In this document: piece after piece, positions 4,505-61,357 of the stretch
How the letters are laid out: each line of letters begins with the position of its first letter
Position numbering within the stretch: position 1 is the stretch's first letter
From: Paracyclopina nana
Lineage: Eukaryota; Arthropoda; Copepoda; Cyclopoida; Cyclopettidae
Reading direction: 5' to 3'
Assembly: GCA_019096065.1 (NCBI GenBank)
Contig: JAGUCH010000001.1
Coordinates: 10,230,001-10,294,000 of the forward strand
Length of the DNA stretch: 64,000 nucleotides
Translations under genes and position numbers: made by a program
The notes under the pieces: generated by a model
Database searches by the model: none
Seen by the model: the letters and a program-made list of their open reading frames with translations, nothing else
Told to the model about the DNA's origin: nothing

Positions 4505-4633
4505 CTACCGTTGTAGCAGGAGCACCGCAATCATGACACTGATCGAGAAAAGGCCTGCAATAACTAAAATGTAGCATGCCATGAAATCAACTGCTTTCTC
4601 CCTCGCTCTGCTCGCAGTCGGAGCTCACGCTCA

Positions 4634-4638
4634 CTGTG
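4634..4638. repeat. Target site duplication CTGTG, left
   Basis: CTGTG immediately before the left end of the Transib-like element is repeated exactly at 7802-7806 after its right end. A 5-bp GC-rich duplication is what Transib transposases make. Confidence 0.85.
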
Positions 4639-4650
4639 CACAGAGGGGCC
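4639..4650 (+). repeat. Transib left terminal inverted repeat
   Basis: CACAGAGGGGCC; heptamer-like CACAGAG (one change from CACAGTG). Further inward, after 13 bases, is an A-rich block AATGAAAAC that may play the part of a nonamer; that last point is inference. Confidence 0.85.
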
Positions 4651-5089
4651 GTCGCTGCAATGAAAACTCTCGTCTCACTGACGTCATGATTTGAGTTGAC
4701 TGGTTAAACTACCTATTTTTGATTTTATTATAAATTATCTAATAAAGATTTAATCTTAATAATATTTGCAATGCGAAAAGTTGACATTTGAAATTTGATG
4801 ATACCATTTGAATTTTTTGAAAAAAAAGCCTTTTTTTCGTCAAAGTGCCATCACATCTTGGGACAAAATTGAATTTATATTTTTTTTAATGGAAAGCCCC
4901 GTAAAGATAAAACTTCTATGGCATGTTAAAGCTAGTTAAAGTATGATTTTTTTATTAGCACAATTTTTGCATCAACCTGCAGCAACGGGAGATATTTCAC
5001 GTTTTTGAAAAATCGAGGTTGCGTGATTTTCGCACAAAAAAAGTCGCGCTCTACGGTCAAAACAAAGCAACTTTCGAAACAGTTGCAGA

Positions 5090-7363
5090 TTAGCAGGTTG
5101 ACATGTCACAGTCATTGTCATTGTCATCGTCATCATGATCATCCTTGTTATTAGAAGCATTGTCATCATCATCATCATCACTATCATCACCATAATTGGA
5201 GGGTAAGATAGGTGTTTCCTCACACAAATCCAAAACTTCTCGAGGCAGAGGTTTTCTCTGTCTCATTTTCAGCTTTTTTGGAAGCAAATGGCTGAGCACT
5301 TTCGGATCAGATTGGTCCATGGCTCGGTTGAAAACATCTTCCGCTCTACTAGCCCATGATGTCTGCCTGGCATGACGGTTTTCAAACCCTTTTATGATTT
5401 TATTCATGGCCTCAGATCCTTCCTCAGAAAGCATTCCACATGTTATTGTAGAAGGCAGAGCTGCAATAAGTTCTTCACCATGTTCCAAAATTTTGTGTAT
5501 TGAGGGAGGAAGCTTGTACCATGAGAGCTCTTGAAAATAAATAGCCAAAATCTGCCTGCATTTAATGCCAAATTTGACAGATGATAGTGGCATTTGGCAA
5601 GACATGGCTATCCAGATGTGGTGTAGCCCTTTGACAAAATCAACTGGTACACTGCAGACTTCTGCAAAGAATTCTGCATTTTCAAATGCCCTCCTAGCAT
5701 TATTACCAGTGTTAGATGTACCAGCTCCTCCATCTCGTGGCTCTCCAATCCTGATGCCATGTTTTTCAAGAAACTTGTCATGAATAACCTTTTGCATCTT
5801 CTTTCTAGATAACTTATTCTGATCAGATCTGCACTGCCACTTCTGGAACTCTTGATTGTAACCAAGGTTAAGAACAAATTCGAATGCCCTGAGGCCAAAG
5901 TGAAGGATGGAAAGGCACATCACATTGAAAGCTTCAGGTTCAATGGCAAAAATCTGTGCTGGATCGGACATTTGGCAAGGCCTGGCTGAACAGAATGGGC
6001 AGCTTTGAGAGCTGGGGTTGTCCATGATCTCATTGACAACCTTTTGGTCACACAGACACCAATAGCCAGTGAAGTTGATGGAAATATTTGGTCTCCACTC
6101 TATGGTGCTGAGGTTTGCTAGCTCACCTCTAAGCCTTGCAATTTCAATTCCCAAGGTATCATGGTTTTCAGGAACAAACCAAAAGCTCAGTGGACGACAT
6201 GACAGTGGAGAATTGCACAATCCATTTCGGTAAATGATGACTTTGGTGCCATTCACTTCAGCTATCATTTGAAGAGGAGCCATTTGTGAGGCTAAAAGTG
6301 CTCCACCTAAAGATGCTTTGGGCCCAATTTGGTTGTACTGGCCATGCCCACGAGATCCATCTAGGCCAAACTTGAAATACAGTGTCAGTTGAACTGGGCC
6401 AGACTTGGACATGTCATCCAGTTTGTCTACCAGGTCCTGGTCCTCCAAAATTCGAAAAGCAGTGTGCTTAAGAGTGGCACCAAGAGGAGCAGATATGCGA
6501 TCGTCGGACACCTGTATTCCTTCTGGTCTAAGCTGGGCTTTAGCAGCTTGAACCTTTTTGTAGCTATAATATCAACATATTGCATAACTTAAGTACCATG
6601 AAAACTAATCTTTCCATTACCTAGGAACAACATTCTGCTTAGAGAACTTATTGACATCCTCTCTGTATTCACAGTACCTCTGCCTTGAATATGATCTGTC
6701 AAACAAGATGGACAGAGCCTCCTCAACAGACATTTCAGGTGAGGAATTAGAGTCTTTTAGCACCTTCTTAAGCAGAATTCCCTTTTCAGGATTTGAATGC
6801 AGCTCCTCAACAACATAGCCTGCAGCTGGATGACCCATACGACGGAAACTTTGAGCTGCAGCTTTGATGACAGCCCCAGGGTGTTTAGTGGATTTTCGAA
6901 CCTTAGCTGCTCCTTTCAGCTGCTGCGAAGCTGATAAAGACCTGAATGAAGTCCTGGGACGTTTCTTGGGGCTATATGATGGTTTCAGCATTTTTTTCGG
7001 AGGAGAAACATAAGGAGAATCACCAGGAGCCTCAATAGCTTGCTCAGGGAAAATGACAGATTCTGGATTGTCAAATACTTGAGCAAAACCAAAGCTTATC
7101 TCCTCATTGAAGAAGTCAAAGTGCCTCTTGAGCATCCTGGCTTTGCTTCTGGAACACTGTTTCCAAAATTTCGAAGTTGTTTGAGAAAAATACTGAATAA
7201 ATTGATGAATTTCTGAAAGCTCTTCTTCACTTAAATCCTGTTGCTTTCTGTTTAACCTTGACAAAAGACAAGCTTTGGCACTTTCACCGAATGCAGAACC
7301 ACTTGGCCAAGTAGATTGCTCTGAGATGACAGCATTCAAAAGATCACATCGCGAGAACGTCAT
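5090..7363 (-). CDS. Transib-family transposase (RAG1-core homologue)
   Basis: Two exons, 7363-6621 and 6563-5090, with a 57-bp intron (donor CCTAG/GTAATGG, acceptor ATTATAG/C), give 738 aa without stops. The second exon matches the RAG1/Transib catalytic core. FGLDGSRGHGQYNQ (Asp about 316) corresponds to the RAG1 D600 region. CPFC (about 436-439) and HKILEH (about 603-608) match the RAG1 zinc-binding CxxC and HxxxxH, the latter aligning with HKTLAH. SEEGSEAMNK followed by NRHARQ (Glu about 632) matches the RAG1 E962 region SEGNESGNK...MNARQ. GTSNTGNNARRAF is typical of invertebrate Transib-like proteins. The position aligned to RAG1 D708 reads LHFG rather than LHCD, so the second catalytic Asp is not placed with confidence. 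The first exon (about 247 aa) carries KKRPRT-type basic stretches and may bind DNA. The C-terminus is an Asp/Asn run. ATG start at 7363. Confidence 0.93.
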
Positions 7364-7789
7364 TTTTACTTGAGAAACAAGACTATCTTAAGTTTCCGGT
7401 TTATTTTTCCGCCAAAATACCGCGTTAAGCAAGGTTAATATCATGAGATTTATTAAAACCTTAATTTTGAGATAAGAACAAGATTATCTTACACTAATTA
7501 CCAAAAATTATGATTTCGTTGTTGTAGTTGTTGGAATGTTGACAAACTTAACTGATGTGTTTATGTTTCTTGATCTTCTCAGTAATTTTTGGCCGTATTC
7601 CACTGTTGCTTAGCTGAGTATCCAGCGCTGCATGTATACATTTTGAAAAACAGCTACCAGATAATAAAAATTGTCTAAAAATGCCAAAAAATACATATTT
7701 TTTTCACAAACATTAGTATCTTACCATTTTAAGATATATACACTAAACAGTGATATTCTAATAGAAAACGCGCGTTTTGGAGTATCATT

Positions 7790-7801
7790 GGCCCCACTGT
7801 G
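7790..7801 (-). repeat. Transib right terminal inverted repeat
   Basis: Reads CACAGTGGGGCC inward from base 7801; its first seven bases are the exact consensus recombination-signal heptamer. After a 12-base spacer comes CTCCAAAAC, an A-rich nonamer-like block. A perfect copy of the duplication CTGTG follows at 7802-7806. Confidence 0.88.
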
Positions 7802-7806
7802 CTGTG

Positions 7807-8842
7807 GCAAAAAGCTTACGAAATTATCCTTTGCGTTCGTGTGCTGTTGCTTTGCACAGCATCTTCACCCACAGCCTGGGCACAAGGATGGACGCTTAGA
7901 GTGGTAACGAGCTGATCGCTTGTCGATCCCTATGTGCCCGCTCACGATTCTCGAGCGTGTCCCGTAACATTCAAATGAAGTGAGTAAACCTGTCCTGTCT
8001 ATTTTTCAAGCATTTTTCAGGAGCAGCAGCCGCGGTCAAACATGTCGAGCGCGGCGCATTCACGTACGCTCTCGAGGGACATCTTTCCAGGGACGCATTG
8101 CATGACGACTGAACTGTGTATGCCTAAACCGTGCTTAAAATTTGAGCAAGTGCACTCGCTCCCATGCTAGATGTGATTGTGATGCAGGCTAGGAGACTGG
8201 GCAGTTACATGTAGCGTTTCTACGTGTCATAAAAGTAGCCAAGATATTTTTCTTCTTCCCAAAGATTCGGGACTGTTTGGTAAATTAAGTGAGCTAAAAG
8301 AAATGGATGACGGAATCGCCGTGTGCATGAGTTGCAATGGAGCTTTCCATAAATGTTTGGTGTGTTCTATTGATCAAGCCAGCTTTCTTTCACTGACGGC
8401 GAAAGGGTGATGTTTGCGTCAACCGGCCTATTACCAACTTTTTTCTTATTTAGGTTGGTCTTGAAAAAAAAGCAGATGAGGCTCATGATTCGTGAATTCC
8501 GACCTTTTTTAGCTACAGCTGGAACGCGCGTTTGCGATTACCTCAGGCTGTTAATCGTTCCGAGCAACAGATAATAATTCTCAAAAGTGTCGTTGAATTT
8601 GCTTTACTTCTGAGACGGAAAAAAGATATTTTTCGAGGCGTGGAATGGCCAAAATCTGTCGAGCTTCGCCAAGCGAGACCTAGTTTAATTAAACAACATC
8701 ATTTTTTCCTACTCATTCCTTGCCAAGATGTCCCGTTCCGTTGATGACTTGTCAATTTTTACATTGGAACAGCACAAGTGTTTAAATTCCCTAAAACATT
8801 TGTGACACATTAGTGTGTTGTCAGTTGCATTTTTACGGTATC
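7807..8842. other. Spacer between transposon and SETD7-like gene
   Basis: No exon could be confirmed. The first exon or promoter of the leftward CCP1-like gene and the promoter of the rightward SETD7-like gene may both be here. 8041-8110 is locally CG-rich with a minus-strand ATG around 8094, but its donor does not give the phase needed by the next known exon. Confidence 0.3.
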
Positions 8843-10298
8843 ATGGAAAGATTGTTGCTTTTCTTTAGCGCAATTTTCTGGGTCATTGAATCTTGTGCTG
8901 GAGATCGTGCGTTTTCAACACTTTGTTCGCTACGAAATGAGCAGAAATGGTCGAAAAACGATTCGCATCAATTCATTAAAGATTGGTTACGTAGTGCTCA
9001 AGTCGATGGACTGAGCACTAGTCATACGATCCAATTGCACTCCTTTGGGAACACCACTGTTATTGATCTCATTACTGAATTAGAGGATGGCTCCCCTAAA
9101 GGCAAGGGTTGGAAAATAGCTGCTCATTACGAGCATGAGCGTATTTTTCACTCTGGCTATTTATATGGCACTCTTGATAGCAGCAGCAAGATGACAGGTA
9201 AGTCGACGGCTTTTTCCGCTTGCGAGGTAGGTTACTTATTCATATTTCTAGAAAACATTTGTGCTTCTCTTTTGCAGGGTCTGATATTGTATACGTTTAC
9301 CCAGATTTCAAGACAGCACTAGTGGGAATATTTAGCAAAGATGTCATGATCGAGGCTAGAGAGGCGAAAATTATTGCTCATAAATGTCGAGATGGAATTT
9401 TAGACATCAAAATTACGTCGCCTAACTCGGCCGCTCGGCCTGTATTTGCGTACGATCCACCCGCCAGCTTTTTTCGAATAAGCAAAACTGTAACACAATT
9501 GCGCTAACAACCAATGCAATGCAAATTTAGCTACTGCTTCAAAATAGCCTACAGTTCGGGATCCAATGGAGGCAAAAAATATTTTCATCAAAGTTGGAGA
9601 CCATGGTGATGCAATGTGGGCCAAACGAGACTTCGAGCCAAATGACGTAATTGCATATTACAACGGACTTTGGTACGAGAAGAAGTTCATTAACTGGAGC
9701 AACATGACTGATGATGAAATGTACGTTTTTCACTTTTTAGCAGAGAGCCCACAAGCACATTATACCCTCAGCATGATCAGCTTAAGGCTCAACAGCTTAT
9801 GCCACACTCTTTTTTTAACATAGATTTATTTAGTTAGGCTTGTTGGCAAGCAATCAGCAGAAATGTTCCCATTTAAAGTCACTATTTTGCGAAAATAGCG
9901 ATCACCTGCTTTCAAACTTCAGTTGACGGGTGCCTGGGGCTCTTGAATTTGCTGGTTGTCTGTCTCACAGTCATTCGCTCTAATGAAGGTGGGCATTTCA
10001 CAAAAACTTGATCGGCATGGATGACGTTTGGGATATGAACATTCCCCAAGAATACTGGCGTCTGGAGAAGTATCGGGCAACGCTGGGCCACAAAGTCAAT
10101 CATAGCTTTACCAAGGCCAATACTTGGTTTGGATCTGCTCATCATCCAAGGTTTGGACGAGTTCGAACGATTACTGCTCTTTCGCCCATCAAGAAGAACG
10201 AGGAGTGCCTTATAGATTACCAATATAGCATCAAGGACAACGTGCCACTTTGGTACAAACATGCTTACGTTCAGGAAGTTGGCCTAATTCCTCCTTAA
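8843..10298 (+). CDS. SETD7-like lysine methyltransferase with signal-peptide-like N-terminus
   Basis: Four exons, 8843-9197, 9278-9489, 9548-9720 and 9989-10298, give about 349 aa; introns are 58-268 bp. From residue about 119 on it follows SETD7: SDIVYVYPDFKTAL matches the MTYVYPDERTAL block, then the SET domain with VIAYYNG (SETD7 Tyr245 position), LGHKVNHSFT (the NHS cofactor and active-site motif), HHPRFG and CLIDYQY (Tyr335 position). The Tyr305 position appears to be Trp or Phe. SETD7 is a nuclear/cytosolic methyltransferase of histone H3 Lys4 and other proteins. Odd here: the N-terminus is MERLLLFFSAIFWVIESCAG, a good signal peptide, and only faint traces of the MORN repeats remain. 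ATG 8843 was chosen because the frame further upstream has no ATG. Whether the protein is secreted, membrane-associated or uses another first exon is unknown. Confidence 0.88.
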
Positions 10299-11761: not shown

Positions 11762-11930
11762 GGGCGTTCTCATATTGCGTTTTAGTTTAACCAAAGCTGA
11801 TACTGGTTAGACCAAACTGACTTTTGTCCGGACAAAAGTCAGCATTCTTGTAGTGTTTAGTTTAACCAGTATCAGCGTGGTTTAACTAAAATCAGTTTTG
11901 GTTAGACCAAACTGCGATATGAGAACGCCC
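11762..11930. mobile_element. Family H foldback element, copy 1
   Basis: 169 bp, nearly palindromic from end to end: starts GGGCGTTCTCATATTGCG, ends with GATATGAGAACGCCC, with a central perfect palindrome CTTTTGTCCGGACAAAAG. Copies at 42654-42822 and 42876-43022 and end fragments near 52165-52183 and 56983-57000. No ORF. Confidence 0.88.
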
Positions 11931-12161
11931 TCTAAAGTATTTTAGTATCTAGCTAGATTGCATCCTCGGATTTTTCAAGTTGAAATAAAATTACATAATT
12001 TTCAACATAATTATTTGACGCTCTCTCTAAATATAGATGTGTTAGATGGCTTAGATGATCATCTTTGTCGTCTATATTTGTACTGTTTTCAGATGATTTT
12101 TGACAATCCTCCTCTATAATTGGACTGTCACTTACCTGTGCTCAAGTGCAGTAGAAATATA

Positions 12162-12746: not shown

Positions 12747-13343
12747 CTGTTCAAAACCGAATCCGCAAAAAACCGTGCCGTTATATTCCGTTTCGTTATA
12801 TTCCCTTCCGTTATATTCCGTTCCGTTATATTCCATTCCGTTATATTCCGTTCCGTAAAAATCCGTTTGGTGGGGTAATCTTTTTCTTTAGAAGGTTTGG
12901 TGAGTTCAATTTTAAAAGTAATAGAAATTATTCCATCAGCACTTAATGTGGCTGATAGGTATGATCCCTTGTATCTCTTGTACTACAGTGAATCTAGGTT
13001 TTTAAGCCCCCATTATCAGTCAATTCGGCCACTTCAGGCACAAAGGCCTCGCATTGATCCATTGCCAGAAAGCACTACTGATTTTATCCCTGCTCTTCAA
13101 AGTAGCCAAGTTCCATCCCAAAATTCTGGTAAAAAACGGAAAAATCGAGATTTGTCATATATGGATGAAACAAATATTATTTCTACTAAAAGACAACGTT
13201 GACTAAAATATATTTAATGGTTTTTAACTGAGATTTATACGGATTTTTACCGAAGGGAATATAACGGAACGGAATATAATGGAACGGAATTTAACGGAAC
13301 GGAATATAGCGGCACGGATTTTTGCGGACACGGATTTCAACAG
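12747..13343. mobile_element. Element K: inverted-repeat element with 15-mer tandem arrays in both arms
   Basis: About 600 bp. The left arm (12780-12865) carries about five tandem units of TTATATTCCGTTCCG; the right arm (13255-13310) carries the reverse complement units. Outer ends are CTGTTCAAAACCG and, reversed, CTGTTGAAATCCG. Between the arms is an open frame (12900-13202, no ATG at its start) ending with a basic GKKRKNR stretch; it follows a plausible AG acceptor, so it could be a remnant exon of a transposon gene. I do not recognise it. Confidence 0.65.
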
Positions 13344-13633: not shown

Positions 13634-13921
13634 AGGCCGGTATATCAGCATAGTGAGGAGACGTATGTTGACTTATTAGCCCGGTTCCAACAAGGAAAAT
13701 CAGCATAGTCAAGAGACGTAACTTGACTTTTTAGCATAGTCAGGCCACAGCTAGCTCGCGCGCTCAGCTCAACCTGACTTAACTGGTTTACCGTACTGCA
13801 CTATGCTGATATACTGTATTGGAACCGGGCTATTAGCAATGTGAGGTCACAGCTTGCTAGCGCATGCACTCGGGTTTACCGTACTAGACTTAACCGATAT
13901 GCCTTGTAGGAACCGGGCTAT
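13634..13921. mobile_element. Family D element interrupted by another D element
   Basis: An outer subtype-1 copy (13634-13675 plus 13833-13921) is split by a complete inner copy at 13676-13832. Both have ends reading GCCCGGTTCC / GGAACCGGGC (the outer left end is degraded), and TA flanks the inner copy on both sides, indicating self-insertion at a TA site. Confidence 0.85.
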
Positions 13922-13977
13922 TCATTACAAAGATTATCCTCTAAGTTATTTAATGCATCTTTATTTTCAGACCCTCT

Positions 13978-14133
13978 TAGCCCGGTTCCAACAAGGAAAA
14001 TCAGCATAGTCCGGAGACGTAACTTGACTTTTTAGCATAGTCAGGTCACAGCTAGCTCGCGCGCTCAGCTCGACCTGACTTAACTGGTTTACCGTATTAT
14101 ACTATGCTGAAATTCCTTGTTGGAACCGGGCTA
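13978..14133. mobile_element. Family D (subtype 1) miniature element
   Basis: Complete copy of about 156 bp from TAGCCCGGTTCCAACAAGG to TTGGAACCGGGCTA with the GCTAGCTCGCGCGCTCAGC core and inverted arms TCAGCATAGT / ACTATGCTGA. Confidence 0.9.
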
Positions 14134-17100
14134 TATGTTAAGCTAAAATTACGTGAGTCTTGAATTTCCTTATGATAAGGAATGATGACGTAGCTGAACG
14201 CCACAATAACGTCAATTCTGCATTTTCTAGATTTTTGTTTTCATACTGTACCCATTGCCTTGAACGAAGTATTTAAGTTGGAGAGTCCTTTCACCTAATG
14301 TATACCAAAGGACATTATTCATGGGATCATTGGAATATAGCATTCTACATAACGGAGGAGCGTACAGGCTGAAAGGCTATCGTTCTATGTTGCAGTGATG
14401 CTAGCTTAGTTTAGGCCAGCGTCGCAAGCTCCTCTACGGCCTCGTGCAGCCTCGAGCTGTTTCAATAGGGGGCCTTGGGCAGCTTCTGTATGTATGCGAG
14501 AAAGCGAGAGAGCACTTCCATCCGAGAGCAACAACAAATCTTCCAAGTTTGTGTCATTCGCTGTCAAGGAAGCCTCTCGTCAGCGTAGAGAGGCTAGTTC
14601 CCAATCGTCGCCGCAAAACAAGGCTTGGTCATGAGATGATGGAAAACTAATGGAGCTCTAAGCATTAGTCCAAAGCTGCGAAGACAGCAGCAGCGCATCA
14701 ATGCTGTAGCAGTGGAAGAAAGTTGCTGGAGGGAGCGCACGACTGAGTGACCAGATGAAGAGAATTGATGCCAAAGCATCGATATTTTCTTTGCTTTAAG
14801 GGGAGTCGTTGTCCACCAATTACTTGGCAAAAGCGGAATTAGTTGGCTCGCGGGCAGTTGAGGTGCATCTCACCCGATTAGAAAGCCTTACGGTAAATGC
14901 TTTGACCCGTTCACCTACTGGTGGCAGCTCCTAAAAGCAACGTTTTGCGGGTCAAGGCACCGTAGAAGCCCCCTCAAATCGGAACAAATTGAAAAAGCGC
15001 CATTTTGGCTTGTCTGGCCACCCTGAATGTGGAGCGCGCGCATTGCTGGCGCCCAGCGCGCACAAAGCTCTTCTTCTCCTTTTCTGCCTTGAAAGGCTCG
15101 TTGCGGCCATTCGCATGCTGGTCTTTGGCCTCAGCACATCACGACGACGACTTTGCGACTGTATTCCCAAAGTGCCATGCTGGAAAACAATGCTGAACTG
15201 GTGCGCTTTCCAATCGCTACTGCTCTAACTCCTGCTTGTCGGCCCCAACGCCAGGACGATGGTGGGGCTCCCGAAGATGGCCTACTCAACTTGAAGAAGA
15301 AGTGTCAGAACTGCATCAAGTGGTGAAAAGAAGAAGGACAACGCGAATAATAGCAACAGCAACCTTAAAGGTAAGCAAAGCTTTCCTTCCGTCGCCACTT
15401 GGCACACCACTAGCTCGTCGCTCCAAAGAAAGCTTTTAAGGAAGGCCGCAATTCAACGGCCGCGTTAACTACTCACTTCAATGCGAACATGCAATGGTTT
15501 TCAGGCACTTGCTATGTGCGGCAATTGTTGCAACTTCTGTTGCGCAAAGAAAAAACAGAATTGAAATGCTCGCAAGGCAACCGTTTCATGACGACGTAAA
15601 AAATCCACTCGAGCGCATGTCAGTCGTTAAAAACTCGTGAGCAAGGCTGTAAAATCATAAATGCTGATGAGCCTTTGAGGCCGCGGGCAAATGATACTAT
15701 GTTTCCACCGTATATGGCTGGCATAAAAAGTATCAATCAGAGCGTTCGTTCGCCAAGTAGACTAGCAAGCAGTAATGAAGCAAGTGTTTGTAGCTACATT
15801 ATTATTGGTTGCTACCGAATAAATCCTCGGCCAAAAATTTTCTCTCTTGCATTCCCTGCAAATTGAAACGCATGCAAGCAAACAATGCATTAGAGCCTGG
15901 CATTGCTGGGATAATGCAAAAGATGAAAAATCATCTAAATGTTCTTCCCATTTCGAAAGCCCAGCTTGTTTCCTTCTCGAGCAAGCGTCAACTTAGCGCG
16001 TATGTAAATACCTATAACCACATGCTTAGTGGTAAAGAGCCACAAACGAGGCTACCGCTGAAAATTGAAAATGGCATGGTTTTGACAATAGACTCCACTA
16101 TGATGCGCTGAAAGGAAAAACTGTAGCGTGAGAGTGCCAACTTTGTTTGTAAAACGTATCGGCCTCTGGCTTTCGTCATCACTATTTTGCAGTGTTTACT
16201 TGCGAGTAGCTTCAGCAGCAGCAGCACAAGTGGTAAGCCAATTAGAAGTGAGAGCTCAGCATTTCTGTAATCAGTCGTAATCTTGTTAGAAATCGCATCT
16301 GCCATGGGATCACTTGATTGAGTCCGACGCGGTTATTGCTGAGAGAAACGGACCCAATGTGGCGGCGGTATGTAGCAGGAGCAGCAGCAACAGCAGAAGC
16401 TAGCACAGTGTGCAGCAGCAGCTCAGCGGCCTTCAAGGCCCAGAGGACAAGGAGTGGCTACGCGAAAGTCAGCCTAGTTGGGCGGCGAGGCTGAGGCTGC
16501 TCGGAGCCTTTATAAAGACCAGACCTTTCAAGGTAAAAGGGGACTCCTGATGGCTGCGGCTATGCTTTGCTCTCCTGCCTCGGCCTTCATGGATTCTCAT
16601 GACTCGCCGTGCCCAGCCGACCTTCTTCACGTGGTAGGCTCAGGATGTGACTATCTATCATAGTGGAGCCGCCGTAGATGACCACGCGCAGCGGATATAG
16701 TGTAGAAAGCAGAACCGATAAAATTGCGCAGTCCTTATCAACAGCAGCAGCAGCTCTTCCGCCGCCGGGTGCCTTCCTCGTACTCGTGTTGCTAGGCTCC
16801 CCGCACGTATTTCCATTCTATCACCGCTCAAAACAAACTTTAACGATTGCCTCGAGAGGTCTCAAGGCTCCTTGTGCACTAACTTGGTTGGTGGACGAGC
16901 GCTTGGACCGAATTCAATGTGCACTTTAAGGCTGCAACATGCTTTTGATCGAGGCGCCCTTCAAATGCTTCAAAGCGAGCTCAACAATGCAAAACGTGTG
17001 TGTGCCATACAGAGGCCAATCAATAAAAGAAAAGAAAAGACTCCTTATTTCCAAGCTCTGGATCCAATGTATATTGTAGAAAGCCTTTCTTTTCTGGGCT

Positions 17101-19329: not shown

Positions 19330-20250
19330 AGGTGTAACAAAGGCTTTTCGCTTTCCAGCTGAAGCCCCACGACCTTGTGAATCAACTGAATGTTGTGGTA
19401 ACGATGCTCCAACTACAAGTGGTGCCAGTTGGACACAAATTGGACCAACTTCAAGTTGCTTGATTTTCCTTATTGTACCTTTTTTGAGTCCTCGTGGCTG
19501 GTGGCTGGCAGCAGAGAACTGATTCATTCATTCAGCTGAACAAGGAGTGCGTTTCAAAACTGAACTCTGTGCAGAAGAACGACGTACATATCACGTGAAT
19601 CCTACTCAGCTTCGCAGGCTGCTACTGCTGCTGCCAATGAATGTTGTTGAGACATATTGTGTTTGAAAGAGGCTGCTGCTTGAGGGCGGGAAGGAAAAAC
19701 TATTGCAGCTTCCGGTGAGCATAAACGACTAGTTATGTGTTAAGAGTGAATGAATACGACTTCAATTATCATCATCAATTTTCATCGTCATCCCACGTCT
19801 CTCTGTCGATCTGCGCGGCGTGCAGATCTAGGAAAATTACCGCGATCGACGCAGATCAACAGTGTTGATTTGCTACTTCACTACTATTGCCTGCCAACTC
19901 GTAAGTTGTTCCAATAATCCTCCTACTGCTGCTGCAACAACTGTGCAATGGAATTTACTTTGCAGCCTTTTGTTTGTTTGCAATCAGCCGTTTGCGTTGG
20001 TCTACTCATGCACCGTTTTTGCACCAAGTACATATTTATGACGCGCGACAGTTACCACCTATTGCATAAATGAGCGATTGTGATTGTGCAGTCAATGAAC
20101 AGCCCCGAGCCCTCCCCTGACTTACCTTAAGCAAAAGCAAGAAACGTCTACCTATGGCAATATCTATGGTTTCAGCAATGCCGCTTACACCTGTACAAAA
20201 CAATAGCAATGGCGTTCCTGCTTTCTCTTCAGCCCACTTTTCGTTAGAGA
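19330..20250. other. Spacer, no gene recognised
   Basis: Likely 3' flank of acetylcholinesterase. No clear AATAAA with supporting context and no conserved frame were found. Confidence 0.35.
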
Positions 20251-20407
20251 TAAGCCCGGTTCCAACAAGGAAAATCAGCATATTCAAGAGACGTAACTTG
20301 ACTTTTTAGCATAGTCAGGTCACAGCTGGCTCGCGCGCTCAGCTCGACCTGACTTAACTGGTTTACCGTACTGCACTATGCTGATATCCCGTGTTGGAAC
20401 CGGGCTA
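20251..20407. mobile_element. Family D (subtype 1) miniature element
   Basis: Complete copy, TAAGCCCGGTTCCAACAAGG to GTTGGAACCGGGCTA, with the GCTCGCGCGCTCAGC core; highly similar to 13978-14133. Confidence 0.9.
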
Positions 20408-21006
20408 TAGATGGCAATAAGAAAGTGGCATCCCCGAAAGTTATGCACGAGATCCAGTTTCGGATGAGGAACGCAACAGCCCCCCTTATGTCCTCCATTT
20501 TGTAAGTGTCCTCTTTTCGATTGCTGCCACTGCTGCTGCTGCTGCTGGAGTGCCTAAACACACGATATAACAAAATACTGTAAGAAAAAAAACACACTTT
20601 TGCATGCGTAATCAAAAGTGTAGAAAAAAATTCTACTTTTCAACGCAATCAGTTTGACGGAAAACCCTACTTCATCTACGTTTGCTAGGCCCGCCGCGCG
20701 TACAATTCTTTCACCCCTACTCCACGATTTTTCTTCGACAACCTTAGCGTACCACTACTTCTGCTACTATTTATGCCAAATACTTATAACAAACTCGTGG
20801 AAAGCTGCTGACAGCAAAAATTGGTGACAGTCACACAAGAGCAAACGAACCCACATTTAACTGCTATTATTACATAATACTATATTAAATGATATCCCCT
20901 GCTATAATAATAAAACCACCCACAATAACATTGTTATCACAGCTTATAATCAAATTTCACTTTGAAAATAAACACATTTAAAAAATTCTACCGCAACTCT
21001 AAGGCG
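20408..21006. other. Spacer downstream of two convergent genes
   Basis: AT-rich with a CTG run at about 20530-20550. Nothing gene-like seen. Confidence 0.35.
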
Positions 21007-27000: not shown

Positions 27001-28395
27001 TTGCTTAAGCAAGTTCTACTTCGCTGCTGCATGCTCATTTCCATGGATACAGCTCGGCGCGGTGCATTTCATTTGAATAGGAGTTTCAATGCTGTATAGG
27101 AACCCGAAGTCAAGCTGACTGCACTAGATGGCACTGAGTTCAGACGGCTTGACGTCATCAGTGCGCGAGCGTAGTTGACACGTTCAACAAATGAACTGCC
27201 AGATGTGAACTATATCAAAAAGTCAAAAAGAGCCAGCTCCCTCGTACAAAAACGCCACTTTAATTCAATGGGTCAATCTGGATATACTTTTAATTAGTGT
27301 TCTAGCTTGCCCGTAAGCCAGCCCAAAGGCCAGCCTGTAATTTGAGGAAAAGATGGAATTTCAGGAAAGATAGCTCTCTAAATATAGTGAGATGTAAATA
27401 TAATTGGTCAATTTGAATCTTAGACACTACTTAAGCTTGGAAAAATTATAAGCTACGAAAAATAATCAAGAAAATAAGGCATTTTGCTCATTCAGACGGC
27501 GCTGCGAAGTCAGCAATCAGCCGTCTGAAATCTTATGAGCTTGCCGGTAGGATAAATATGGTACGATTTACGGTTCCCTATTGCTTAAGATATATTCTCT
27601 TGGTGGCCAACGCGTGATGTACGCGCATGCTGAACTAATAATATTGTGAAAGGTGATTGAGTGCTTCATCACCTTCTGCAGCAATGCACACACGCAGTTT
27701 TTGGGGTCAAGAGAGAGAGAGAGAGAGACTAACAACTACCATGTAATTTGGGCAGCCAACTAACCGCTTTATCATAGTGGCTGGCTTTTCCATCTTAGCC
27801 CCTGACATCTACCGTAGAATTGTCTTATCGCGTGTTATGGGTGGAGCGCAGTGGTGGAGCCACTGGACGTAGCAATAGCCATGCTCGAGGGAGGTGGGAA
27901 AAAAAAAGAGAAAAAGGGCTTACATTGCAATGCCAGGGCAGCAAGTTCAACAGCCAAATCTTGAGAGACCGGAAGCCGCCCTTGAAGCACGTCCTGCTTC
28001 ACTTGCAGAAAAAATTGGTATCGGGTTATTTCCTCGACTAATCTGCAAGGATCTGCAGCGTAAAACTTGACTCCCAAGTAGAGTGTGATGGGGGCCGCTC
28101 CTCGGATTTGACGGCACACTCGCTTTCCAGGCTCAAGCCAATGCTGCATGCAAAAACAGTTAGCGCTAGGAAAAACTTTTTTAATGATTAGCCGCACCGT
28201 TTGGTTGTCGTTGTCCTGATACCGGAGGCCGAAATAGGCCGTCTCCATCAAGTTGAGGTATTTGAAGATGTTGTCGAGGAGGTCTTGACCGGTGGTCTTG
28301 TCCTGCACTTCTTGGATCAGCTCCTGCTTGTCCAGCAGCAGAATTTTGACGTGAAAAGACTTGACGTAGGCGGGCAAGCACCTCAAACAGCCCAT
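21049..28395 (-). CDS. EPB41L4A: Band 4.1-like protein 4A (FERM domain protein)
   Basis: FERM proteins link membrane proteins to the cortical cytoskeleton. Fourteen exons with closing phases: 28395-28198, 28143-27924, 26910-26696, 25931-25843, 25737-25674, 25618-25517, 25455-25336, 25275-25136, 24412-24176, 23758-23588, 22615-22451, 22154-21816, 21760-21499, 21219-21049; 830 aa, longer than the roughly 690 aa of vertebrate EPB41L4A. Start MGCLRCLP resembles the MGCFC of the family. F1 lobe: [10 protein letters not shown]2: [20 protein letters not shown] and [33 protein letters not shown]3: [39 protein letters not shown]. After the FERM domain comes a FERM-adjacent segment, then a long Ser/Arg/Gln-rich tail whose RSRSP and ...EEN...[10 protein letters not shown] stretch matches the EPB41L4A C-terminal region (IPYTKIET). 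The family C repeat at 27095-27582 lies in intron 2. EPB41L5/yurt is less likely on these matches. Confidence 0.93.
27095..27582 (+). mobile_element. Family C element, copy 1
   Basis: About 490 bp from TATAGGAACCCGAAGTCAAG to TTTACGGTTCCCTATTG; also at 36971-37460 (reverse) and 61933-62420. Contains the blocks GCACTGAGTTCAGACGGCTT and CAGCCGTCTGAAATC, an internal inverted pair around the word CAGACGGC. Non-coding. Just downstream (27712-27728) is a GA microsatellite. Confidence 0.82.
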
Positions 28396-34383: not shown

Positions 34384-35233
34384 ATTAGCTGCCCCCCAAC
34401 ATTTCAAGCATTGGCTAAAATTGAATTTACGAAAGTTTTTTTGGCTTGATTTTTGCAAGATATGCCTTAAATTTTGCGGCTCGCTTTATTGCAGATAGCG
34501 AGCGTGAGCTCATCAAAGCTGACCCAGCGGTCTAGCCTTCAACATGCGCCTGCACCTGTTGTTGTTGCGTCTTGCACCCATGCCGCACCAGCCCGTTCGG
34601 CCATGTTTCTTCAGCACTCGCTAGTAGTGATGGAGCGAACCGAAAATTTTCAGCTTGATCCAGCTTCAAGCTTTTAAGGCCAAAATTACCCAAAAAGCAC
34701 AAATAATGACAGAAACAGCTTTAACTTATATTTGAGCACTTCACTCCCTCAAGTTTTTGTTATTTTTAAAATTAGCTCTTTTTTGTTTTGATTCAAAATT
34801 GATAAAGTTTTGAAACTTTTTTGGTGTCAAGCTTTTCAAAATTTGGTTCGAGCGATCCCAAGCTTTTTGCTTATGTAGCTCAAGCCAAGCTGAAACTCGT
34901 TCCATCACTACTCGCTAGTCGCCAGTTTACTGCTGTACGTATTTAAGCCAGCTTCTGAGCAATATTTTCTAATTAAATTGGTGGCTCAGTGGTAGAGTGT
35001 CGGCGCGCTACCTGGGTGACCAGGGTTCGATTCTTACTACCTCCTTCCTTTTTTTCTATGATATTCAAATAAAATAGATGGCGCAAGGATCAAGTGAGGT
35101 ATAATGATCATTGTCCACTTGCAGATGCATAATGTTCATTATCCTCCTCTACATCAAACAACAGTGAAAAATCATGGAAATTATATGGTCGGAACTTATG
35201 TACTGCTCAGCCGACTCAGCTAATAGTAATAAT
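34378..35233 (+). mobile_element. Element T, copy 1: inverted-repeat element carrying a tRNA-like sequence
   Basis: Bounded by ATTACTATTAGCTG (34378 on) and CAGCTAATAGTAAT (ending about 35231), a short terminal inverted repeat. The copy at 57297-58040 shares the same ends and most of the interior, including GATAGATGGCGCAAGGATCA-like and GGTCGGAACTTATGTACTGC blocks. Always preceded by the family I hairpin, so I and T may be one composite element. Confidence 0.72.
34980..35041 (+). repeat. tRNA-like sequence inside element T
   Basis: Has an A-box-like TGGCTCAGTGG followed by TAGAG, and a B box GGTTCGATTC, at tRNA-like spacing. The acceptor stem does not pair well and the sequence recurs in repeats at 57789-57849 and, reversed, 58221-58278, so it is a tRNA-derived (SINE-like) module, not a confident tRNA gene. 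Confidence 0.6.
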
Positions 35234-35924
35234 ATTTAAAAAAGCGACCTTTGAAAGATTTGCCTTCAAAAAAGTCTTTGAAAAAAACCTGATCAACCTC
35301 TCGTCAACTTGAAAGTATGCAATATCAATTTTTGCATTGAATGATAGGTTCCTTTCCATAGCAGCAGCATTCCGGAACGAATGTTCCGAAGATTCAGAGC
35401 GTAGCACCTCCTCGTATTGGCCAGTCAGCTTTGCCATTGTTGCACTCGATTATCGGGCTTCTTCAGCCAATTAATAATGAACTGGACTTTTCTCATTTAG
35501 CTTGATAACATCTTTGAGAGCTGACCAATTTGTAGTCATCTGATCGAACGCTAGCGTTAATGAATACATCGTGTTGTTAAAAGGTTTGATTACGTACGAG
35601 TTAAGATTAGGTTCTTAATAAACTTAGAGATCGGGCAACAAAATCCGCAGTTTTGCGCTGGTTCCTTTCACGCAACCTTTTTTAAAAGCAAATCGGAAAG
35701 ATTTCTTTATTCTCTACAAACCTAGGGAGCAGCATGGGGAGCGGGAAAAACCAAAAAACACATTTTTTTCTTTGCTTAATTATTCCATTAATTACAATTG
35801 TTTGCGAAAAATTAAATATTGTATTCTTTAGCATAGGATTCGGGTTTTTCCTTCAGCTTACTCATTTTAAACTCTATTGGGTGAAACTAGAAAAGCCCTA
35901 TAGGGAACAATTAGAAAAGCAATA
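35234..35924. other. Unassigned AT-rich stretch
   Basis: Nothing gene-like or clearly repetitive recognised. Confidence 0.3.
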
Positions 35925-36243: not shown

Positions 36244-36625
36244 TAAGCCCGGTTCCAATACAGTATATCAGCATAGTGCAGTACGGTAAACCAGTTAAGG
36301 GCCTGTTCACCTGCTTATTATGGCCGTTATTTTAGCAAAATATTGGAGAGAAATACTGAGAAACTGAGAATTTTATTTTTGGTGTAGGATGGCTTTTGGT
36401 ACCAATATATCGATTCCGAAGTCAAAATCTGACAAATGATTTTACAAATACCGGATATTTGCAAATATCAGCATAATATTGCGCGTTATTTTGCTGATAA
36501 TATTGCAGGTGAACAGGGCCCAAGTCAGGTCGAGCTGAGCGCGCGAGCTAGCTGTGACCTGACTATGCTAAAAAGTCAAGTTACGTCTCTTGACTATGCT
36601 GATTTTCCTTGTTGGAACCGGGCTA
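36244..36625. mobile_element. Family D element split by a family E element
   Basis: Outer ends AGCCCGGTTCCAATACAG and TTGTTGGAACCGGGCTA are intact; the middle word CCAGTTAAGTCAGG of other D copies is interrupted after CCAGTTAA by family E (36299-36521). Confidence 0.88.
36299..36521. mobile_element. Family E miniature element, copy 1
   Basis: About 223 bp with ends GGGCCTGTTCACCTGC and GCAGGTGAACAGGGCCC (16 bp perfect inverted). AT-rich interior with TATTTGCAAATATCAGC. Related: 58383-58589 and a right half at 55300-55436. Confidence 0.88.
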
Positions 36626-36970: not shown

Positions 36971-37460
36971 GAGGGAACCGTAAAACGGTACCATATTTAT
37001 CCTACCGGCGAGCTCATAAGATTTCAGACGGCTGATCGCTGCTTACGCTGCGCCATCTGAATTAGCAAAATGCCTCATTTTCTTGATTATTTTTTACAAG
37101 GTATAATTATCACAAGCTCAAGTAGAGCCTAAGTTTCAAATAGACCAATTATATTTACATTTCACTATATTAAGAGTGGTATATTTCCTGAAATTCCATC
37201 TTTTCCTAAAATTCCAGGCTGGCCTTTGGGCTGGCTTACGGGCAAGCTAGAGCACTAATTAAAAGTGTTCCCAGATTGACACACTAAATTAAAGTGGCTT
37301 TTTTATAATAGGAAGCTGGCTCTTTTCGACTATTTTGTAGTACAGTTCACATCTAGTAGCTCATTTGATGAACGTGTCAACTACGCTCGCGCACTGATGA
37401 CGTCAAGCCGTCTGAACTCAGTGCCATCTAGTGCAGTCAGCTTGACTTCGGGTTCCTATT
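36971..37460 (-). mobile_element. Family C element, copy 2, inserted at the end of a family B repeat
   Basis: Reverse orientation of copy 1; ends GAGGGAACCGTAAAACGG and GACTTCGGGTTCCTATTG. Preceded by the B-family word GCATGCACGCCA and followed by ATTATGATTGTCTTTTGTTC, which is the B-family tail. Confidence 0.8.
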
Positions 37461-39764: not shown

Positions 39765-42700
39765 ATGCCAAGCAAGGACAAACTTTCCGACATCACAGCA
39801 GCAGCGGCTGGAGTGGCGGCAGGGCCGAAGCCTTCTGAGGAGTCTGGCTGGTACAAGGGCACATTTAACGGGACTTTCTTCCACGTACGTAGGACGAAAG
39901 CATCTATCTATACATATGTATGGTCGTCCAGAGTGCAAGGCTGCAGAAGCAGCATCAGCGGCAGCGGCAGCAGCCTCGAAGCCACAGCCTCCCCGAAAGT
40001 GAGGCTTGCCTTGGCAGTCAGCTGAAAACGCAGCCTCCGCTCACTACTCGCTCGCTCTCCCCACAAACTCACGCTTACACACATCTTTCTAGTGAGAATT
40101 CCTTCTCTGCTGGCTGAGGGTGCATGAGAAACGACGACTATGTGAGGTGGTGTTTTGCAGTGTGCGCACGATATTTTCAACCCACGAGGACTTGATTTTT
40201 CGGCTGTCGCATGGACCTCCATCACGGATGAGGTAAGACCAGCCCTTGTTTACTTTGGCTGGCTCAGCGGTCATAGGGCAGCCTAAGCCTTTCGAAAATC
40301 ACTTGCATGACGTTGCACATCTCTAGCTGCCGGCTGCCTGCTTGCCTTCCACACACAAGCAGCAGAGAGCAATCTAATTAGTTTTCCACATCAACTTACT
40401 TTCATGCTTGAGGCATTCGCTTAATTAGCTCACAGTTCCAAACTGCCCGACGCGTGCTGCACACTCAGGCTTGAATTATTATATTACGCGCCTCCTAACT
40501 CATTTCATTACTTTTCTTCGACTTTTTTTACTGCGCTCAACTTTCGGGTAAGATGGATTCGGAATGCTAGTTCGCTGGAAAAGCAAGCAGACCCACTGCT
40601 CTCTTTCTTGTTGGTTTAGCGTTACCTCCTGCTTGTACAAGCCTCATTTTTATTTACACGTCCGACTTGGAGAGTTTTGAAGCTGGCCTCACCAACTCTG
40701 GTCAACCAATAACCTAGGCTGTGTGTCTTTGATCGCGGCATGGTTGCGGTTCGCATTGATTCTTAATTTCGGACGAGAGTTGGCGATGTCTGTAAATAAG
40801 GTCACAGAAGATAATTAGCCATGCTGCAAAATCGCTTCATTCTGACGTCGATATCGGGTAAAGAAGCTCCGTGGGCGCACTGCAACCTTGAAGCAAATGG
40901 AAGGAAGTTCTCCCCTCGTTCCGTACGATCTCAAAATTCACTGTGATGTTTTTGTAGGAAAACAAAATTGCCGCACCAACTCTTTGATATCAAGTTAAGG
41001 CTGAAAGAAAAGTTAAAGTGTCCCTGACAGCTTTCGTTGCTCCAGGAAAAAAATCATCCTTTCAAAAAACTGTAGCGTTGACAGCCAACGACGCATTTGC
41101 TTTCACTAAATCCCATATCCCCAATGTTCTTCGCCATTTCATGCATCAAAATAAGTAATCTTGATCAATTGATAATCAGGCTGATCTATAACGTTGATGT
41201 TTTGCGATTGTCTCGCATGGTGTTTCTGCGGATCTGTTGGGGACACCACCGCTTTGCCTAACCTAGGGGCCGCTAACTACATATTACTCGGTGTACGTGT
41301 ACCCTCATCATATCGCTTGCTATGCCCTACTATATTTGTCTGAAGGCAGCAAATGCTCCTCAGCAATTCCGTCTTCCACTGACGGGCTAGTTTGAAAGAT
41401 ATTCATTCGAGTTTTTGTGCTCCTCAATAATTGGCTTGTTAGGGCCCGATGTTAGTTTTGAAAATGAGACGGCATTTTGTCGAAAATAACAACGTTTACC
41501 CTTGTAACGAGGAGGATCGAGAATTCTCATCTAATGCTAGTTGACAGGCATTATCTAACTCAAAGTCTGGCTTCGACCTAGTGCCACTTTTCACTTTTTT
41601 CAGAAGGAACGGAAATTGATAAAGCTAAGCAGATGAGTTGCCGTTGGTGTTATGAAACTCAACCTAGCTTATTTTCTTTTGCTCGTCTCACAACTTCTAC
41701 GAACGAACTACTCTTCTGTAGTGTGTGTACATGGGCGGCAGAGAAAATGAGCCTCCTCGTCAATGACGTCACGCTTTCGATGTTTTAGAGACAAGGAAAG
41801 AACAACAACTATCCAAAATAAACAGATGCTTCCAACTCATAACACTTGTGACCCCCCCTCATTTTATTGATCACAAAATCCCTTGATTAGACTTAATGAA
41901 GCGTCCTGGAGTCTGGCGTAGGAAGAAAAATACGCAGATTCGATGCACTTCGATGCAACGTATTTTCCAGGGCAGCCAAATCCAATTTCGATTCAAATAA
42001 AGAAATGTTCTTGTGCACTTTGGGAAAATACTGAGACATCATGTCCCTCTTTTGGCCTATATTACGAATTCGGCTCGTCTAAGAGCAAACTGATCAAAAG
42101 AAGATGATGCCCGTAGCTTTTATCTCACTGCACTGCTGACAATTTGTGCAGGCTAGAATGGAAAAGCCAGATGAGGGCTGGTGGATACAAGTTGAAGCGT
42201 GGGTTGCAAATCTCACCAAAATCACCGCACGATAGACACGAGATAATCCTTTTTCACAACTTTTCTGAAGCTTGACTGTTTTTTCCAAAATTTTGGCTAT
42301 TTTTCAATTCAACTTGTTTGTTATGAGTTCATAAAATGAAAAAGGTAGAACGTAAAAGTTGTTCTATCTCCGATCATATCAAGAACAGGATATGATTTGC
42401 TGGCAAAAGTGGAAAGTGCTAGAAGGGTTCGGACATTTTACTAATGAACAAATTATTTCGGAAGTAATACAACTAGGCAAAACATTTCGGAGACAGTACA
42501 ACTAGGCGAGTTCGGACATTTTATAACTGTGCATAATTGGTCGGACTTATGCTACTCAACTTTTCGGAGATAAAACTACTCAACTTTTCGGAGATTTTAA
42601 AGCTAGATTTTCGGACAAAAAACGTTTCCCCGATTTGGTCCATGCTGCCTGCAGGGCGTTCTCATATCGCAGTTTGGTCTAACCAAAACTGATTTTAGTT

Positions 42701-45700
42701 AAACCACGCTGATTCTGGTTAAACTAAACGCTACAAGAATGCTGACTTTTGTCCGGACAAAAGTCAGTTTGGTCTAACCAGTATCAGTTTTGGTTTAACT
42801 ACAATGCGATATGAGAACGCCCCTGCAAATTGGACCTAAGTTTCCGCGGAAAGATAAAAACTGATCTCATTATTAGGGTTTTCTCATATCGCAGTTTGGT
42901 CTAACCAAAACTGATTTTAGTTTAACCACACTGAACCACGCTGACTAATGCTGACTTTTGTCCGGACTAAAGTCAGTTTGGTCTAACCAGTTTCAGTTTT
43001 GGTTGAACTAAAATGCGATATTGAGCGCGCGAGTTTCTCCAGCAGCAGGAAGAATTTTGTGTGAGCGAGAGTGATGTGTGGTGCATCATGCATGCCTCGT
43101 AATTACATTTTTACTGCTTTGTATACCACGACTAGCTTCCAGTAAATTATACACTTGGGGTGTGCTCACTTCTCCAGGGAATACTTCCACCGTCGTAAGC
43201 ATCGTAATGGCTGCCTGTCAGCCTAATACTTTTCTGAATTGGCAATTCTTATCGAGTTCCTGGTTCATCTTCCTCCGCCTCGCTATAATTTCCTTTCTCG
43301 CTTTTTATGGCGACTGGCGTAGGCAGAACAGCTCAATTGGAGGATGCTCGAATTCTCCACACAAGCAAAAAACGTCGTACTGCTGACCGCATCGGAAATC
43401 ATTCGATAGCACTGCTTCAAAACAATAATGAACGTGATAGTAGAGCCTTCTCATCCTTTCTCAGTTGAATATCCACTTAAAGAAGGGGATACCAACACTT
43501 CATTCCCTTTGATCGTATTCAAAGGGAATCGGAATGCAGATGGAATTGCCTAGCTTGTTTTAGCACTTTTAATCATAAAAGCAGGCACAAAAACAGAGCG
43601 ACCAGATATTTTTCACCAACATCATTATCCGTAGGAGCAATCCATCGTCAAAGATCGATTGGTAGGATCAGCGCAAAGCAATATAGGCATTCGGGAGGAC
43701 CACATTGCGCGGCGATCTCGGACAAGCTCTCACCGCCTCTTTTTGTTCCGATTTTGAAATATTGGGAAGGGCCTTTGATCCAGATCGAAAAGCTCTGCTC
43801 TCCAAATGAGTGCCTAAATTCCACGAGAAGTTTCTCTAGAGAACTGATCGGTTTCGTCGTTGCAAAAGAATTGTCATGACTCAATCATTGTGTCTGAGCA
43901 TATTACATGCTTGAAAAATTGGTTTTTGGAGCATGAATGAATTTCAGAGCATCCATGCGTTTTTGAACGTCCTTTTCCTAATTCACCTTTCATTGATTGG
44001 TGAAGTGTAAGCGTAGGCCATGAAACTATGTTTTCTTTCTTTATTTGCCAGTGATATTTTCAGTCCGAGATGACCTTGAAGAGCTCTGACGACGTGCACC
44101 TCCAGTTTTTGCTGGGATCAGTAAGAAGCAGGCAAAACAGCCGTCGAATAACTAAGAAAAGCAAAAGCACCCCAGGTAGCCGCGAGGGCACGATCGGTGC
44201 CAATCAATCTCCGCGAACCAAAGAAAAATGGTACCTGGCGAGGGAAGCAATATCCAGAGGTTATAGCTTCATTCGATTTTGTGGTGATAGAAGGCTCTTG
44301 ACGGATACGCTGTGCATAACAATGCATGGAAAGGGAGAACCAGCTTTTTGCATCTTCTCTCATTTTCTCCCTCTATGCTGCCTGGTAATAGCTTCCATTC
44401 GTGCTGTTTTTGCCTTTTCGCTGAGGTTTCTGCATCACTTCTGGAGAGTTGGGAATATCATAATTCTGTTTGATCATCATCATAATTTTTGAACTGGTCA
44501 TCGTGTGCGAGAAAGCTCCTTTCTGCCCTCATCATTCAAGGCTCTGCTTTTACAGAAACTTCATCGAGGCCGTCCGGCGGCGATCCTTGGCCTTTGGCCA
44601 TGACCTCGATGGGCTTGAGACCTATGTACAGCTCGACGGGCGGGCCGGAATCAGGTAAATGTCACAACGCGCGCGTGTGTGTGACGATCTCGCTAACTCC
44701 ACGTGCATTCAAGTTGTTAGCGACGATCCCCCAGTCTATGGGCGAAATTCCCGTTGCGACTCCCGCGTGAGCCTCCTCGAGGCTGGCGGAGGCCTGGCAA
44801 CCAGCCTTCACTATTCGAATCCCAGCTTGGTGGTGGCCTCCCCAACTGCCAGTATTCTCCATCATCGATCATTCGCCGAGACCAGATTCCACGGAACGCC
44901 TCAACTTTCACCGGGTAAGCCATCACTCAGCCGATCATTGTTTGGAACGGCCTCAGTAGAACGTTACAGCTATCGATTTTTTTGTGGCAAAAAATGACCA
45001 ACCGCTCTATTCGTTTTCTCAGGTATCTGGGCATGAGAGAAGCAGGTAATTCACTCAAAAAAGATCCTCAATTAATCATGAATAATCATCGCGAAGGCTC
45101 AAGGCGCAAAAATGCTACTGAATCCCGCCCATTCACAGCCTGCCTGCATGCCTTCACTGTAGACGCAATTAACATTTCCAGCTAAGATGCATGTTTGCTC
45201 TCCTCTTTTCTAAGTGGGCTAGCTGAAATTTTTGCCAATATTGCGCCGCAAAAGTAGGCTAGCACTCCATCTTGCTCAGCGACAATTACTGAAAGTTGCC
45301 AGCTCATCTTGGAGCAAAACTAGGCGAGTTTGCTGGTTTGGTTGGCGCAAATCAATGTGTGTTTTCGTTGCAGCTACTTCGAATCATCATCCACAGCAGC
45401 GTTCTCATCCAGCCTCAACAACAATGGTTGCTAACACAACCTCAACCGCGGAGGCCAATGCTGACTTTCGCAAGCAGCGAGCAGTGATGAAAAAGGACCT
45501 TCAGCGAAAGTTTGAGCGCTGGGACAAAGACACGCATGACCGAACTAGGTATGTACACACTTAACTCGCAAAAGCTAGCCAAACGTAACCAAGGAAAGTC
45601 AACTCGAAAAAGATGATGGCTCATTCCTTACTTCGCTTCCTTGCACAGCTTACGCTTGCAAGTACAGCAACGAATACGCGAGGATTTTTTGCTTTCTCTC

Positions 45701-57300: not shown

Positions 57301-58040
57301 ACTATTAGCTACCCCCAACATTTCAAGCAATACCTGAAAGTCTATAAAGAAGTGCTTTTCTTGCTCATTTTTTGCAAGATAAGCCTTAAATTTTAGGGTT
57401 CGCTTTATTGCAGACAGCTCATCAAAGTTGACCCAGCGGTCTGGCTTGCACCGGCCGCGCTAGCTAGTAGCTGCTGCACACTGCGACACACACTTGCGAC
57501 CATGCCGCGTCGGCCCGTTTGGCCTTTTTTTCCCGCTTGCTAAAGGGCTGCATGTACGTAGTTCGCTAACTTAGCCCACAATTTTCAAATTATTTTTTCA
57601 AAAAAAGCCTTAAAAATGTCAGCGTAAAGATGGGTTTTCCCTTTATAACAAAGCTAATTGGAGCGCACGCTTCCTCAAAAAACGAGATTGTCCGTTCTTA
57701 TTCTCAAGGCAGTGAGTGACGTCACTGGCTGACCCGTACATACAGGTCTTTAGCGCTTGCTCCTGATATTTTTCTATAATCAAAATTGATGGCTTAGAGG
57801 TAGAGCGTCGGCGCGCTACCTGGGTGACCACGGTTCGAATCTTACTGCCACTTTCCTTTTTTTCTGTGATATTTAAATGAGATAGATGGCGCAAGGATCA
57901 AGCGAGGCATATTGATCATTATCCACTTGTAGATGCATAATATTCATTATCCTCCTCTTCGTCAAACAGCAATGAAAAATCATGGAAATTATATGGTCGG
58001 AGCTTATGTACTGCTCAGCCGTCTCAGCTAATAGTAATAC
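57297..58040 (+). mobile_element. Element T, copy 2
   Basis: ATTACTATTAGCTA at the left and CAGCTAATAGTAAT at the right; interior parallels copy 1 with the tRNA-like module at 57789-57849. Confidence 0.72.
57789..57849 (+). repeat. tRNA-like sequence inside element T, copy 2
   Basis: TGGCTTAGAGGTAGAGCGTC, then GCGCGCTACCTGGGTGACC, then CGGTTCGAATC (B box). Differs from copy 1 at a few positions. Confidence 0.6.
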
Positions 58041-58079
58041 AAATTATAAATAGAACTAACTGGTACTCACGATTTCTTT

Positions 58080-61212: not shown

Positions 61213-61357
61213 GGCTCATTATCTTCCGCGTCTTTGATCGTAGCATGGTTGCGGTTGTTATCGGTTCTTATTTACTGACGAGGTTGCGATGTCAGTAAAT
61301 AAGAAGCGATAACAACCGTAAGCATTCCACGATCAAAGACGCGGAAGATAATGAGCC
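61213..61357. repeat. Family G hairpin, copy 2
   Basis: 145 bp like 47336-47480 but with the 11-base loop in the opposite orientation (GAGGTTGCGAT) and a few arm mismatches. Flanked by AATAT / ATATT. Confidence 0.88.

Follow-up and report, generated by a model that had tools for sequence, protein, structure and literature searches.

Transibs, transposons with a single gene, are related to the transposon from which RAG1 arose and to the enzyme that cleaves antibody genes in vertebrates. Within the window, i.e., the whole 64-kb stretch of DNA analyzed, a preliminary description had assigned an apparently intact element of the Transib/RAG1 group to positions 4634–7806, which raises the question of whether a complete transposon encoding its own transposase resides at this locus and which members of the group it resembles most. 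Well-delimited Transib copies, for which ends, duplication and an open frame are available, help to trace changes in end sequences and in the RAG2-binding part of RAG1 and also represent candidates for new transposition tools. Based on the features presented below, the locus very probably harbors a cut-and-paste DNA transposon of the Transib superfamily, complete in appearance and potentially autonomous, in an invertebrate, probably arthropod, genome.

The stretch from 4634 to 7806 comprises the element together with both copies of a 5-bp duplication (Table 1). The inverted ends pair at 11 of 12 bases, with one mismatch, and both start with CAC. The outermost heptamers read CACAGAG at the left and CACAGTG at the right end, the latter being identical to the consensus V(D)J heptamer as given in PMC8289069. 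Among 12 inverted 12-mer pairs (at most one mismatch) detected within approximately 1.5 kb on either side of the coding region, a single one is accompanied by a perfect 5-bp duplication. In 300 dinucleotide-preserving shuffles of the flanks, yielding 9.5 pairs each on average, five duplication-bearing pairs occurred in total, none of them featuring CAC at both ends. Hence, the element ends proposed in the preliminary description hold, as does the duplication of CTGTG on both sides, which was confirmed by direct reading. Since one copy only was observed, the ends rest on a single insertion. BLAST of the element against the window revealed no second copy (best match elsewhere, E 0.17), and the end pattern (up to two mismatches) was found seven times in the window, two of these matches being the element's own exact ends, where 7.5 matches are expected by chance. 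That the 64-kb stretch contains a single copy is in line with expectation, since according to PMC4411706 autonomous Transibs typically number one copy or, at most, very few.

Table 1. Positions of the element, its gene and its end sequences within the window.
Feature	Position	Strand	Remarks
Whole element	4639..7801	- (that of the gene)	3,163 bp; delimited by ends and duplication
Target site duplication, left copy	4634..4638	.	CTGTG; direct reading
Terminal inverted repeat, left	4639..4650	+	CACAGAGGGGCC; pattern match and shuffle test
Candidate second, nonamer-like end block, left	4663..4673	+	AAAACTCTCGT; positions 25–35 from left end; suggestive only
Exon 2, transposase	5090..6563	-	Includes the stop; encodes catalytic core and acidic tail; match to 6pqn
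Intron	6564..6620	-	57 bp, GT...AG; spliced protein aligns to 6pqn across junction (PSY..KVQ)
Exon 1, transposase	6621..7363	-	From first ATG; residues 1–210 without detectable relative
Candidate second, nonamer-like end block, right	7768..7778	-	AAAACGCGCGT; positions 24–34 from right end; suggestive only
Terminal inverted repeat, right	7790..7801	-	CACAGTGGGGCC; first 7 bases correspond to the V(D)J consensus heptamer
Target site duplication, right copy	7802..7806	.	CTGTG; direct reading

Duplications of 5 bp also accompany HzTransib of Helicoverpa zea and the Drosophila Transibs (hopper, transib1-4), the proportions reported in PMC3276498 being 532/533 for hopper and 7/7 for transib2. As described in PMC1852546, HzTransib has a length of 3,518 bp, compared to 3,163 bp for the element analyzed here; it differs by its duplicated sequence, GCTCG as opposed to CTGTG, and by inverted ends termed 'long', as opposed to 12 bp. 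Drosophila Transibs feature inverted ends of 33–45 bp (PMC10299278), whereas 12 bp and a possible second block are present here. Compared to these values, the ends of the element are short, and the long ends of the Drosophila elements were not found. In the literature surveyed, ends of 33–45 bp are not given as a defining trait of Transib.

The two exons encode 738 residues in an uninterrupted frame on the minus strand, to which exon 1 contributes 247 codons and two bases. The longest run without a stop amounts to 493 codons, compared to a median of 95 and a maximum of 187 for 300 versions of the element shuffled by single bases. Moreover, the splice junction is backed by homology, since the E-value of the match to 6pqn improves from 1.1e-44 for exon 2 by itself to 5.4e-50 for the spliced protein, and since the junction is spanned by the conserved PSY..KVQ segment, with which the core begins as in HzTransib. 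The hexamers AATAAA and ATTAAA, putative signals, are located 3' of the stop within the element. The gene is flanked by only approximately 450 bp per side inside the element; no further reading frame exceeding 103 codons, and thus no RAG2-like frame, was found within its limits.

Comparison with solved structures identified the Transib transposase 6pqn as the best match, covering residues 211–695 of the protein. The entries 6PQX, 6PQY and 6PR5, sharing the sequence of 6pqn, are named Transib in PMC11844651. To HzTransib, represented by 6pqn and other structures, identity in the aligned core is 30%. D316, D420 and E632 align with D126, D225 and E436, the catalytic residues of HzTransib specified in PMC6941560; by hand count, the 6pqn chain numbering is shifted by 17 relative to each of the three. 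Furthermore, the zinc ligands C436 and C439 (CxxC) as well as H604 and H609 (HxxxxH) are kept and aligned with those of HzTransib. The protein therefore features the arrangement described for Transib in PMC12730594, namely CxxC and H(3-4)H between the second D and the E of the DDE triad. The earlier claim of RAG1-core motifs is borne out by alignment, and those of membership in the Transib/RAG1 group and of an uninterrupted two-exon, 738-residue frame with a 57-bp intron hold as well.

Outside the core, the protein differs from HzTransib by approximately 200 extra N-terminal residues relative to the solved chain and by an acidic tail following residue 695 of 738, where the 6pqn alignment stops. 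For residues 1–210, Pfam and solved-structure searches gave no convincing match to a family or a structure. A nonamer-binding domain was considered for the stretch from residue 134 (KRPRTSF...); a 78-residue piece surrounding it hit no solved chain at E ≤10, and the assignment was kept as a hint only. The stretch resembles the GRP-type motif described for Transib in PMC9435367. A single-sequence structure model of exon 2 had a mean pLDDT of 37 and was discarded.

Activity has already been documented for other Transibs, in that DNA cleavage by HzTransib was obtained in a purified system (PMC6941560) and Drosophila melanogaster underwent a recent invasion by Transib1 (PMC12974806). For the copy described here, the residues following the catalytic glutamate read KGFE, as compared to RRFR in both 6pqn and the RAG1 chain 3jbw_A, which argues against activity. 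It is accordingly conceivable, and deserves serious consideration without being the expected case, that the locus represents an immobile Transib copy whose frame stayed open by chance. The exchange of basic residues next to the catalytic glutamate and the mismatch between the ends point in this direction, whereas a frame of 738 codons that stays open over a conserved splice junction, the kept catalytic and zinc residues and the perfect duplication speak for a functional copy. This alternative concerns activity and is compatible with the Transib identity of the element.

Similarity to RAG1 is much weaker than to Transib when single sequences are compared. The best RAG1 chain in the structure comparison reached an E-value of 0.0015, and the Pfam RAG1 model (PF12940) scored 19.5 bits on exon 2, below its cut-off of 25. 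The zebrafish RAG1 chain 3jbw_A shows a C-to-H spacing of the zinc pairs of 207, compared to 165 in the protein studied here and 165 in 6pqn (the values for 6pqn and 3jbw_A being counted by hand from alignments). This difference suggests that the RAG2-binding insertion is absent. According to PMC9435367, loss of the alpha11-alpha12 part, which binds RAG2, is confined to Transibs of subgroup II, a further trait of which is a type II C-terminal tail; by the spacing of 165, an indirect test, the protein falls in with that subgroup.

A profile built from the protein and HzTransib also reached RAG1 (best E 8e-12) and the ProtoRAG RAG1L (3e-10), as is expected within one superfamily. In 226 RAG1-alignable columns, 68 identities with HzTransib and 59 with RAG1 were counted, so that the protein appears only slightly closer to HzTransib; residues shared exclusively amounted to 34 with HzTransib versus 25 with RAG1 (three-way counts 34, 25 and 23, including HzTransib and one RAG1 chain only). 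This count constitutes a weak test, since the columns are among the most conserved ones and were located by a profile of the other two sequences, and it weakly favors HzTransib over RAG1.

These data also bear on the idea that the element descends from a RAG-like (RAGL/ProtoRAG) transposon of the two-gene kind, encoding RAG1-like and RAG2-like proteins, from which RAG2 was lost. RAGL elements such as ProtoRAG and TransibSU likewise feature short ends starting with CAC, 5-bp duplications and a RAG1-type core. Indeed, CACAGTG at the right end is identical to the V(D)J consensus heptamer (PMC8289069), and ends of approximately 12 bp are near the 13 bp (PMC4411706) and 15–17 bp (PMC8355894) indicated for RAG-like elements. 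Such an origin is nevertheless considered very improbable: a second gene is missing, no other frame exceeds 103 codons and the roughly 450 bp per side leave little beyond the gene, HzTransib is the best match with RAG1 and ProtoRAG chains being far weaker, and the zinc-domain spacing is of the Transib and not of the RAG1 type. CAC ends, 5-bp duplications and a core of this kind are described for single-gene Transibs in PMC4411706. Domestication as a Transib-derived host gene with a cellular role, for which a frame open despite only 30% identity to the nearest solved relative and a possible loss of transposase activity through KGFE in place of RRFR could be adduced, is equally improbable, since both ends and a perfect duplication persist, as in a fairly recent insertion and unlike in an old host gene.

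The observed ends, the duplication, the open frame with its match to 6pqn, the catalytic and zinc residues, the spacing of 165 and the lack of a RAG2-like frame thus all lead to a cut-and-paste transposon of the Transib superfamily. Its two-exon gene would provide the element with its own DDE transposase, which, by analogy to the family, would bind the two CACAGWGGGGCC ends as a dimer. Nicks would then be placed 5' of CAC and hairpins closed on the flanking DNA, so that the element would be lifted out; this nick-hairpin chemistry is likewise adopted from the family. Finally, the 3' ends of the element would be joined to target DNA 5 bp apart, a stagger presumed from other family members, and repair would give rise to the CTGTG duplication.

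Regarding a possible bipartite organization of the ends, the element resembles V(D)J signals and RAG1 in its CACAGTG right end, in an A-rich block following a spacer of 13–14 bp and in the core motifs common to both, and differs from them by a nonamer score at chance level, by the lack of RAG2 and of a 12/23 asymmetry and by its weak RAG1 similarity. In comparison with the V(D)J nonamer, the A-rich block behind the 13–14 bp spacer matches at 6/9 positions at each end, a value reached by 38–43% of random placements. The inner blocks AAAACTCTCGT and AAAACGCGCGT match each other at 9/11 positions with an offset of one between the ends. With an offset of at most one, this value was reached by 18/2000 shuffles and by 73/2000 draws from deeper in the element; for offsets of two and three, 33/2000 and 44/2000 shuffles reached the same, and the best match at zero offset is 5/11. 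When local alignment of the inner ends was not restricted in position, the AAAAC block again came out on top, at a score reached by 43% of 5000 shuffles. The block consequently stands out only when distances from both ends are near-equal, and the second block is merely suggestive. A possible end architecture would combine the outer block with the AAAAC block. A more specific proposal, rated as rather unlikely, would be that bipartite ends characterize the family, with CACAGWGGGGCC as the outer block, containing at one of the ends an exact V(D)J heptamer, and AAAAC located 11–12 bp inward at near-equal distances; the element would then be a RAG2-free Transib with a near-symmetric, '12-like' signal arrangement, and it may prefer targets similar to its own heptamer. 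A shifted AATGA match at the inner ends, spotted by eye, was dropped.

At the left junction (4632–4645), the sequence forms a near palindrome, CACTGTG|CACAGAG, similar to a V(D)J signal joint. This appearance stems from complementarity between the duplicated CTGTG and the CACAG with which the element itself begins. The empty site, ACTGTGG (A-CTGTG-G), agrees by hand count with four of the six fixed positions of CCANTGG, the motif that PMC3276498 reports for hopper and transib2 targets. Self-targeting, considered in view of the junction, was set aside, since this motif already partly resembles the site. Given the partial fit, ordinary Transib target preference may account for part of the heptamer likeness.

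The finding is ordinary in kind; its value is moderate and lies in the clear delimitation and the divergence of the element. Transib is a known kind of element, of which the copy described here is, as far as could be judged, a new and divergent representative; it may already bear a name in Repbase or GenBank. Its ends are short and include an exact CACAGTG heptamer, and its addition to the superfamily leaves the accepted picture unchanged. No relatives emerged from protein scans of viral contigs and of bacterial and archaeal genomes or from translated phage and plasmid searches, scans that need a short matching pattern first and may miss relatives this distant. Bacterial Transib-like proteins have been reported (PMC9435367).

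Besides the element, the window contains an acetylcholinesterase gene, a cyclic-nucleotide-gated channel and a FERM-domain gene, which identify the DNA as animal. The acetylcholinesterase exon scored 351–353 bits to the five best chains and at most 293 bits to the 55 others listed among 87 matches. These best-scoring chains are mosquito enzymes, so that the host is probably an arthropod. Approximately 1 kb to the right of the element, a frame at 8795–9322 features a start judged by eye to be signal-peptide-like; it has no Pfam match.

Several other repeats were noted in the window. A repeat of 484–488 bp is present in three copies (27096–27579, 36972–37459 and 61933–62417; 88–91% identical) with short inverted ends, starting with ATAGGAACC and ending with GGTTCCCT (GGTTTCCT in one copy). 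A MITE-like repeat of approximately 158 bp was located at 13675–13833, 13977–14134, 20250–20408 and 62963–63122 (92–96% identical, inverted ends approximately TAGCCCGGTTCCAACA), with a partial copy near 36522–36625. Two more MITE-like families with long inverted ends, each approximately 96% identical, occupy 47336–47481 and 61212–61357 (146 bp) as well as 11762–11931 and 42653–42822 (170 bp). Furthermore, a 268-bp repeat (34975–35242 and 57783–58050) has a tRNA-like start (TGGCTCAGTGGTAGAG in one copy) and perhaps represents a SINE; ARAGORN called no tRNA in the window. Finally, at 12762–13334, two arrays, built from the 15-bp unit CCGTTCCGTTATATT and from its complement, lie in inverted orientation on either side of approximately 380 bp, resembling a fold-back element.
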